A stretch of DNA of 64,000 nucleotides from Luteithermobacter gelatinilyticus (lineage in GTDB: Bacteria > Pseudomonadota > Alphaproteobacteria > Sphingomonadales > Emcibacteraceae), in assembly GCF_005849285.1 (NCBI RefSeq), contig NZ_CP040517.1, positions 874,501-938,500 on the forward strand, read 5' to 3'. The position numbers and the translations under genes are program-made. The notes beneath the pieces were generated by a model. That model searched no databases. It worked only from the letters and a program-made list of their open reading frames with translations, and was not told where the DNA came from. Of this stretch, positions 6,150 through 34,679 are shown piece after piece (the first letter of the stretch is position 1; every line of letters starts with the position of its first letter).

Positions 6150-6402
6150 ACCAGCAACTCCTGTCGCCAATACGGATGTTCCGCCCTGATCCATTGTCCC
6201 GATGGTCAGGTGGGCGACCAGATGGCAGGTTTCCTGGCTCTTGGGTTATTGCTTCTGTTTCGCCTTCCCGGACAGGGTCCAGTGACATTTAAAGAAAAGA
6301 AGCTCGCCAATTACAGTTGCGGGCACAGCCACGGCTTGGGAAATTCACAGAATATATTCCGTACCGTGTTCCCTTTTAACCCCGAAGGGCACCATCTGCG
6401 GC
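6150..6402 (-). promoter_or_regulatory. Cobalamin riboswitch upstream of btuB
   Basis: On the minus strand the order is: GATGGTGCCC..TTCGGGGTTAAAAGGGAA (6395-6370), a GTCACTGG..CCGGGAAGG block around 6288-6264, and the B12 box AGCCAGGAAACCTGCC at 6239-6224. CAGATGG (6399-6393) can pair with CCATCTG (6226-6220) to close the aptamer. The remaining ~70 bases toward btuB form the expression platform. In this class adenosylcobalamin binding lowers expression, so high B12 should shut the btuB-cobO operon. The 3' limit is approximate. Confidence 0.93.
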
Positions 6403-6462
6403 TGATATATACACAGAGTTGGCAAGTTGATCAACTAAGAATTCGTCTGAGAAGAGGGGCCC

Positions 6463-14437: not shown

Positions 14438-14477
14438 CTAGCGTGAATTGTGAATAGGTTGGTTCAATTCACTCTAG
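14438..14477. repeat. 40-bp palindromic element, short relative of the 31093 MITE
   Basis: CTAGCGTGAATTG at 14438-14450 and CAATTCACTCTAG at 14465-14477 are inverted copies with one mismatch, around a 14-base loop that continues the MITE end (TGAATAGGTTGGTT). It lies between two convergent genes, two bases after the symporter stop, and its right arm supplies the TAG stop of the Rrf2 gene. As RNA it would fold on either strand, so it may act as a bidirectional terminator. Confidence 0.8.
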
Positions 14478-30980: not shown

Positions 30981-31092
30981 AAAATAATAAAACCCTGAAA
31001 AAAACATTTCACTCAAAGGAAAGACGTCACAATTTGTTCTTTTTTGCGTGTCATGTTGCACCTGCGCACCAAATATTTTCATATTTTCTGCT

Positions 31093-31376
31093 AGAGTGAA
31101 TTGTGAAGAGGTTGGCTCAATTCTGTTGGCGGATCGTGGCCCGCCTCACGCGGAAGACGGCGCCGGGCGATGCGGGGCATCGGGCCAGGCGTCTGACCCA
31201 GGAGTCTGACAAAGTGAGCGGCCCCAAGCCGCCACCCCGAAGGGCCGGGCCGATCTGGTCCAGTTCCGGCGGGGTTTGGCTGGGCCGTACCGCCAGTATG
31301 GCCGGCGCCAAATCCCTGGCTCCTGAACCAGACCTGACCGGCAGAATGGGTCAACCTCTGCACAATTCACTCTAGT
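31093..31376. mobile_element. 284-bp MITE-like element with ~35-bp terminal inverted repeats
   Basis: The left end CTAGAGTGAATTGTG-A-AGAGGTTG (from 31093) and the inverted right end (to 31376) match over ~35 bases with about four mismatches. The GC-rich interior codes for no transposase, but both strands stay open for ~90 codons and end in the same residues because the ends are inverted. CTAG borders both sides, so a TA target duplication is possible. Related copies: 14438-14477 and 34639-34660. Confidence 0.85.
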
Positions 31377-33352: not shown

Positions 33353-34642
33353 ATGAGACGTAATCGGCTTCTTGGCAGGGCTTTGATGATCGGGGTTCTG
33401 ATGATTGGGATCATGACGGGGGCCGGGGCGCATCAGGCGGCCTTTGCGGCAGAGCAGGCTTTTCTGGTAATAGAACAGCCCCTGATGAAGCAGAGGGAGC
33501 CGGGCCGGCTCAGTCTGTATGTCACTAATCCCTCTGACCGTGCTGTGTCGTTTGTTGTTCAGGATCATTTGCCGGTGGAGATCGCGGTGGGGACCCAGCG
33601 TCGCGGGCTGACGGTGCCGCTTGCCCCTGCCGAGACGGCAGGAGAACGGATCATTCCGCCGACGGGCTTTTTGAAGGTGGACTATATCCTGACCCTGCCC
33701 GAAGACATTCGGCCAGGGCCGGTGCATCTGAGCTTGCGGAAGGGGCAGGGCAGGGGGGTTTTTGTCATGCTGCGCAGCGACAAGGTGGCCGGCCATGAGC
33801 TTGCAGCGACCGGACCGTCGGACAAGAGGACACCAGAGACGGCGGAAGAAGTGGCAGAACGAGAATTTGTTGTCCTGAATGAGCGGGATATAGAGGAGTT
33901 GAAACAGGAAAAAGGGTTCTTTTTCGAGAATATTTCCCGGTATGAGCCGTCCTATATTCTGTTTGGCAATGATGATTTTAATGCCAAGTTCCAGCTCAGC
34001 TTCAAATATCGCCTGTTTGGCGGGGGGCGACAGGTGAGCGACCGGCGGTCCTGGCTGGAAGGCATACATTTTTCCTACACCCAGACGTCGTTCTGGGATC
34101 TGGCGGCGGAATCCAAGCCGTTCGAGGACAATATATTCCAACCGGAACTGTTTTATTTTTTGGAGGACTGGCGGCCCTCCTTTCTGCCGGAGTCGGCGAA
34201 TCTGGATTTGCAATTCGGTTTTCGGCATGAATCCAACGGCCAGGGTGCCGATAAATCCCGCAGCCTGAACGTCCTGTATGCCCGCCCCGGCATTGATTTC
34301 GATTTGGGAGCAGGACGGTTTTTCCGGCTCATGGCGGATGTGTGGGCCTATGTCGGTGATCTGAGCGACAACCCGGACATTAAGGATTTTCGCGGACATA
34401 CTGGCCTTAGCCTGACCTATGGCACGCTGGATGGGGTCCAGATCGCGTCACGGATCCGGGGCAGTCTTGCCACCGGCCAAGGCAGCGTGACCCTGGATGC
34501 GACCTATCCGTTAAATAAGCTGTTTTTCAAAAATATTGACATTTATCTTCAGGCCCAGCTGTTTACGGGCTATGGGGAGACCCTGCTGGATTACAACCGC
34601 AAGGTCACCCGCCTCAGATTCGGTGTGGGCATCATTCGCTAG
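33353..34642 (+). CDS. pldA: Outer-membrane phospholipase A (OMPLA-like) with extra N-terminal domain
   Basis: 429-aa secreted protein with a signal peptide and a two-part layout. Residues ~25-140 look like an Ig-like beta domain (RLSLYVTNPSDRAVSFVVQDHLPVEI); residues ~165-429 are an OMPLA barrel: SRYEPSYILFGN, FKYRLFGGG, FSYTQTSFWDL, and FRHESNGQGADKSRSLN, which keeps the catalytic His292 and Ser294 of the HxSNG motif. OMPLA hydrolyses outer-leaflet phospholipids and is active as a calcium-dependent dimer. E. coli PldA has no comparable N-terminal domain. The TAG stop at 34640-34642 is part of the repeat element that begins there. Substrate and regulation cannot be read. Confidence 0.88.
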   Translation: MRRNRLLGRALMIGVLMIGIMTGAGAHQAAFAAEQAFLVIEQPLMKQREPGRLSLYVTNPSDRAVSFVVQDHLPVEIAVGTQRRGLTVPLAPAETAGERIIPPTGFLKVDYILTLPEDIRPGPVHLSLRKGQGRGVFVMLRSDKVAGHELAATGPSDKRTPETAEEVAEREFVVLNERDIEELKQEKGFFFENISRYEPSYILFGNDDFNAKFQLSFKYRLFGGGRQVSDRRSWLEGIHFSYTQTSFWDLAAESKPFEDNIFQPELFYFLEDWRPSFLPESANLDLQFGFRHESNGQGADKSRSLNVLYARPGIDFDLGAGRFFRLMADVWAYVGDLSDNPDIKDFRGHTGLSLTYGTLDGVQIASRIRGSLATGQGSVTLDATYPLNKLFFKNIDIYLQAQLFTGYGETLLDYNRKVTRLRFGVGIIR

Positions 34643-34679
34643 AGTGAATTGTGAAGAGGTATTCTTATTCTTGAATAAG
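34639..34679 (+). repeat. Solo end of the MITE family, followed by a small hairpin
   Basis: CTAGAGTGAATTGTG and the following AAGAGGT (34639-34660) are identical to the left end of the 31093 element, but no inverted partner follows. Directly after comes CTTATTC-TT-GAATAAG (34664-34679), a 7-bp stem that may act as the pldA terminator. The first TAG is the pldA stop codon. The rest of the gap to 35016 holds no convincing gene. Confidence 0.75.

Follow-up and report, generated by a model that had tools for sequence, protein, structure and literature searches.

A two-armed miniature element of Luteithermobacter gelatinilyticus with ends matching a resident IS630-family insertion sequence and a folded interior found across Alphaproteobacteria

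A short palindromic element in the genome of Luteithermobacter gelatinilyticus very probably belongs to a superfamily of structured miniature inverted-repeat transposable elements (MITEs) that are moved by IS630-type transposases, change their terminal repeats over time and leave behind short palindromes, here called minis, which would mostly be remnants of collapsed copies. The element lies in a stretch of 64,000 nucleotides (hereafter the window), and its body of about 270 bp would represent one lineage of a superfamily extending over the whole of the Alphaproteobacteria. In this organization an outer stem formed by the terminal repeats would enclose two hairpin arms, which appear to be kept over long times, while the repeats themselves would turn over, each lineage fitting a different IS630-type transposase.

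Direct reading of the sequence, CTAG-AGTGAATTGTG ... CACAATTCACT-CTAG, places the CTAG borders at 31091-31094 and 31372-31375, so that the element measures 285 bp with its borders (table 1); the sequence-only reading had recognized these borders but set the element at 31093-31376, with 284 bp, which is off by one to two bases. Its inverted ends, previously described as nearly identical over about 35 bp, show 89-91% identity over 34-35 bases in self-matches of positions 1-35 with positions 252-285. The 15-mer CTAGAGTGAATTGTG is found exactly at both ends of the element and at 34639, and matches with one and two mismatches lie at 14438 and 14463; altogether the window holds six matches against 0.9 expected, a number that none of 100 shuffles reaches. 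The related ends already noticed at 14438 and 34639 turn out to be, respectively, the end of a 38-bp mini and an end without partner. The single strand of the element has a folding energy of -167.3 kcal/mol (z = -7.8), the two arms being joined at its centre by CCCGAAGGG in this genome. As the earlier reading held, the interior is rich in GC and lacks a transposase: frames of 90 codons are open on both strands, nothing plausible is encoded, and a coding role is excluded because the 13-bp length steps between copies disrupt any frame. No Rfam family scored above its gathering score at the element when the whole window was scanned. It is shorter than about 500 bp, occurs in multiple copies, has terminal inverted repeats, encodes no transposase and shares its ends with an autonomous element, and thus has the features by which MITEs are defined.

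Table 1. Positions of the element, its parts and related sequences (window coordinates unless a locus is named)
Feature	Position	Strand	Basis or genome coordinates
Whole element with CTAG borders	31091..31375	+	Direct sequence; 100% self-match
TA..TA span of element	31092-31374		Genome C1:905592-905874
Left terminal inverted repeat, TAGAGTGAATTGTGAAGAGGTTGGCTCAATTCTG	31092..31125	+	
Right terminal inverted repeat, read inward TAGAGTGAATTGTGCAGAGGTTGACCCATTCTGC	31341..31374	-	
Arm A of conserved fold, tip GCGATGCGGGGCATCG, closing AnCCCGAAGGG	31123..31244	+	Match to model R1, covariation
13-bp tandem unit, GTCTGACCCAGGC type (GTCTGACCCAGG type)	31185..31214 (approximate)	+	Copy alignment
Arm B, second hairpin arm, inverted, diverged	31236..31345 (boundaries approximate)	-	Folds of copy and consensus
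38-bp mini-palindrome, two ends alone, joined at CAATTC	14439..14476	+	Genome 888939-888976
Solo end, truncated relic without partner	34640..34660	+	
IS630-family insertion sequences, near-identical	L103:971-2029 and L104:971-2029		

Further copies abound in the genome, which is a single contig of 3,145,891 bp (3.15 Mb), as the sequence-only reading had predicted: a 13-mer of the end has 178 exact matches (92 + 86), compared with none for the same pattern read backwards. Nucleotide searches combined with 421 kb of genome stretches gave a catalogue of 26 near-full copies, which measure 269-296 bp and deviate from their consensus by 0.7-6.7%, about 15 partial copies and numerous minis, so that the element and its short remnants occupy over 100 places. 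TA is present at both borders in 25 of the 26 near-full copies, consistent with a target-site duplication of 2 bp, which taken alone is weak evidence. The bases flanking this TA differ among copies, the combinations C..G, C..A, T..G and T..A accounting for 69 of 78 minis; the duplicated target is therefore TA within YTAR, and the element proper reads GAGTG...CACTC. The length classes of 270, 283 and 296 bp reflect the copy number of the 13-bp tandem unit, since the insertions of 12+1, 13 and 25 bases in the alignment of copies all fall at one place. In nine of the 26 near-full copies the border abuts the end of another copy, with the TA common to both; some bacterial structured repeats likewise insert into one another, such nesting having been described for pneumococcal repeats (PMC10969869). 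When the flanks of the long copies are joined to restore the empty site, a long open frame spans only one of 26, against 85% for random TA dinucleotides in the window. A core-like relic without recognizable ends lies at 3051572-3051772 of the same genome.

A search of the genome for DDE_3 (PF13358) recovered two loci, each holding an IS630-family insertion sequence with TA on either side and a length of about 1,060 bp. Their ends read TAGAGTGAATTGTGAAAAGGTTGGGTC on the left and, inward, TAGAGTCTTTTGTTAATAGGTTTAGGC on the right, and the left end (position 971 of both loci) agrees with that of the element at 25 of 27 bases; insertion sequence and element both sit at TA within YTAR sites. The genome thus contains, together with TA targets, a resident IS630-family transposase with matching ends, which, along with the copies and their TA borders, upholds the proposal of a non-autonomous family served by a transposase located elsewhere, including the hint at the IS630/Tc1 families. 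This insertion sequence, of IS630/Tc1-mariner type and with the matching ends TAGAGTGAATTGTGAANAGGTTG, would be the mover: its transposase would bind the terminal repeats and move the element in trans by cut and paste. The transposase scores 127.2 bits with PF13358 and 155.2 bits with NF033545, over the curated cut-off, and is encoded in two frames split at a run of eight A (A8). On the IS630 model, which has 299 positions, the first part spans 4-118 and the second, a relative of the Sleeping Beauty transposase, spans 122-298. The upstream frame is out of register at A8 also in nine of the ten relatives that were examined; the split therefore seems to be a programmed feature, not damage, and may involve a programmed frameshift or transcriptional slippage. 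The covariance model for the arms (R1, introduced below) has no match in either locus, which indicates that the interior of the element is not derived from the insertion sequence. The copy in L104 (about C1:114.7-118.1 kb) lies a few hundred bases downstream of the apparent end of an rRNA operon, with 5S and tRNA-like sequence, read by eye, upstream of it.

The interior is more than filler: it is a folded module conserved across the class, which the sequence-only reading could not see. A search among relatives (n = 40) found a homologous element in another genus (genome G005), about 70% identical over 179 bp of the interior and with quite different ends, TAGAGCAATATCAGACCAGATTG; further homologous elements are present in genomes G079 and G038. 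The model R1 was built from four examples of the first arm, in which 17 of 36 pairs already show changes on both sides, and arm A of the window scores 71.6 bits with it (E 3.9e-13). On its rather rough E-values, R1 has matches in 43 of 385 genomes of Alphaproteobacteria at E <= 0.01, many of them with at least 10 copies each, and, at E <= 0.001, in 16 of 399 genomes from the phylum, including a few that do not belong to the class; it has none at E <= 1 in 407 kb of mostly alphaproteobacterial control DNA. Most of the loci read contain an element of 261-278 bp (about 265 bp) that is bordered by TA, has terminal repeats in agreement at about 20-24 of 24 bases and encloses two arms meeting at the centre; in many genomes arms A and B both match the model, on opposite strands. 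In the model-fitted alignment of 56 arms, 94.6% of the pair cells are standard, compared with 34-40% when the pairing is slid, 35 of 36 pairs have changed on both sides and covariation scores 0.735 versus at most 0.114 when slid. An unfitted sequence alignment of 24 arms recovers this fold as well, and 29 of its 30 pairs covary. Among the copies in the window's genome, 105 of 131 changes at paired positions break the pair, which suggests that the fold is constrained over lineages, as selection on mobility would lead one to expect, and not in every resident copy. G-U outnumbers A-C in both arms alike, and the comparison thus points to no transcribed strand. A link with CcrM was rejected, GANTC totalling 19 in 34 elements against 30.8 in shuffles, even if several lineages have one such site near position 23. 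Searches of phage contigs returned two contigs for each of two motifs, but no match to the arm model in them, and only two plasmid carriers are named. On one of them, Martelella mediterranea plasmid pMM593, the element (L390:1220-1624) overlaps an annotated hypothetical protein, WP_155122253.1, which is probably a spurious gene call.

In comparisons between lineages, positions 7-17 of the ends are for the most part close to random identity, with the tip TAG kept, and the terminal repeats vary between genomes and even between copies within one genome. Five copies in G987 and G990, for example, combine long invariant interior blocks with different terminal repeats, each of which is still matched to its own partner end. 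Set against a collection of 124 IS630-clade ends, 17 of 54 superfamily ends agree at no fewer than 13 of 18 variable positions, against 0.23 expected from shuffled ends, an excess that is somewhat inflated because shuffling breaks the TTGA near positions 20-24, itself IS630-like, and because both ends of each element were counted. Matches of 16 out of 18 outside the element's own genome link L326 to an insertion sequence of a Sphingomonadales MAG (L116) and L276 to one of a Hyphomicrobium MAG (L128). The TAGCCC(G/C)NATTTCTCAC-type ends of L280, L283, L284, L292 and L294 have no good match among the 124 IS630-clade ends, and no transposase was recognized beside the single ends read in G910, which are of the type TAGGGTCTGG. 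A local IS630 with matching ends is found in the window's genome only, compared with none identified in the 29 other carrier genomes, 15 of which lack any IS630 match; the failure to identify a partner there could stem from a lost transposase, from draft assemblies or from a partner of a different kind. Considering the conserved fold together with the excess of IS630-like ends, we infer that the element gains, over time, ends suiting other IS630 lineages. Most likely, the fold would hold the ends together as a compact substrate, or make the element tolerable between genes, or both.

Most of the further related ends belong to the 38-bp mini-palindrome TAGAGTGAATTGTGAATAGGTTGGCTCAATTCACTCTA, of which 78 copies were catalogued in the stretches read. 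Its sequence is that of the long left end from position 1 to 33 with ACTCTA appended, the left and right ends being united at the direct repeat CAATTC; a 44-bp form, made likewise from the other end, occurs at seven sites. Minis diverge from the consensus by 4.8%, as opposed to 1.5% for the long left ends, and are thus older on average. Only one of the 78 lies inside a predicted gene, whereas random positions fall within genes in 76% of cases over these stretches and in 82% over the window; of the 77 intergenic minis, 31 are flanked by convergent genes. By a looser frame test, an open frame of 150 codons or more runs across 20 of the 78, and some may therefore be situated at gene ends. The solo end at 34640 provides the TAG stop codon of the upstream open reading frame (33353-34642), indicating that relics can set gene ends. 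Palindromes of 16 bp in G910 (L359, L369, L370 and L375), TAGGGTCTGGACCCTA, correspond to the joined ends of its 267-bp element and are a possible counterpart of the 38-bp minis.

According to the junction and the greater age of the minis, the large palindrome would collapse between the 6-bp direct repeats CAATTC near its base, leaving the 38-bp form. We find it rather doubtful that the IS630 transposase instead moves the minis as mobile units in their own right, even if their 78 copies with one junction type, the presence of both ends and the YTAR context in 69 of 78 would suit such units. There are, in fact, two junction types, each accounted for by a short direct repeat of the long form (CAATTC for the 38-bp type, 3-4 bp for the 44-bp type); moreover, minis are older than long copies and, from what is generally known of Tc1/mariner elements, 38 bp offers scant room for two ends bound by transposase. 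In a REPIN-like system, the arms rather than the ends would be recognized, whether by a Y1 protein of RAYT type dedicated to them or by some other protein; this would account for arms that are better conserved than ends across genera. Such a system appears very improbable, given that REP families carry a GTAG or CGTC tag where the borders here are TA within YTAR, and that the ends match the IS630 of their own genome as well as IS630-clade ends elsewhere.

A simpler reading takes the element for an ordinary MITE of the resident IS630 with a meaningless interior, its likeness to sequences elsewhere being due to chance or recent horizontal spread. It is in keeping with the ends, which match the resident insertion sequence, and with copies that are young and similar, but we judge it improbable and already contradicted by covariation in many genera: the interior does not come from the insertion sequence, in which the arm model finds nothing, 43 of 385 genomes contain the two-arm fold, which covaries strongly even though sequence identity is low, and the same fold bears different ends elsewhere. 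Covariation might, on the other hand, arise if the arms were kept by self-correction of the palindrome, through template switching in hairpins, instead of selection, leaving the fold without function. Compensatory changes are possible in one step inside hairpins, the G-U excess is the same in both arms, and current copies lose pairs freely; self-correction could therefore create part of the covariation. As a full explanation we deem it possible but unlikely, since it needs neither a near-constant length nor the bulges, the tip and the two-arm layout that are kept over many genera. The reading of a structured superfamily can be extended further, to an ancient transposon parasite of the whole class, which keeps its two-armed fold of about 265 bp for mobility, exchanges its ends to suit the IS630-type transposase of the host and decays to short palindromes that may explain part of the intergenic palindromic repeats of the class; to this extended version we give an even chance.

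MITEs are usually regarded as gutted copies of one transposon, dying along with it. The present element reverses this picture, its body being conserved over a class while its ends change. Its lifestyle, that of a MITE with an IS630 partner, is of a known kind; a literature search of open-licence papers retrieved no account of a MITE whose interior is conserved throughout a class while its ends are exchanged. The best parallel for the lifestyle is RUP, a short non-coding repeat of pneumococci whose ends resemble those of IS630-Spn1, a resident element of the IS630 family (PMC3049150, PMC2229807). RUP and our element share TA targets, about a hundred copies and over-representation between convergent genes; the element works like RUP with IS630-Spn1 but is not a member of it, since RUP is 107 bp, AT-rich and pneumococcal, whereas the element has 270 bp, is GC-rich and two-armed and, unlike RUP, shares its core with a class in which it bears different ends. 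The nearest described repeats of Alphaproteobacteria are the CIR elements of Caulobacter and other members of the class, which, in the description available to us, are about 110 bp long, lack terminal inverted repeats and contain GANTC (PMC2229807, citing Chen and Shapiro 2003). As so described, they resemble the element in their intergenic position, two hairpin arms, conservation between species and TA termini; its size of about 270 bp, its 34-bp terminal repeats and a consensus devoid of GANTC set it apart from that description and speak against membership. Correia/NEMIS, ERIC, Chunjie and BOX/SPRITE repeats, compared by description only, are also short, structured and mainly intergenic, and to our knowledge none has been described with a class-wide conserved interior and exchanged terminal repeats.

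If the proposed superfamily is real, the covariance model would serve for locating such elements in unannotated intergenic DNA, their changing ends would constitute a natural experiment on transposase switching by non-autonomous elements, and collapse at a 6-bp repeat would give a concrete origin to abundant short intergenic palindromes. Elsewhere in the window, the sole Rfam match is a cobalamin riboswitch at 6207-6411 on the minus strand (108.7 bits).
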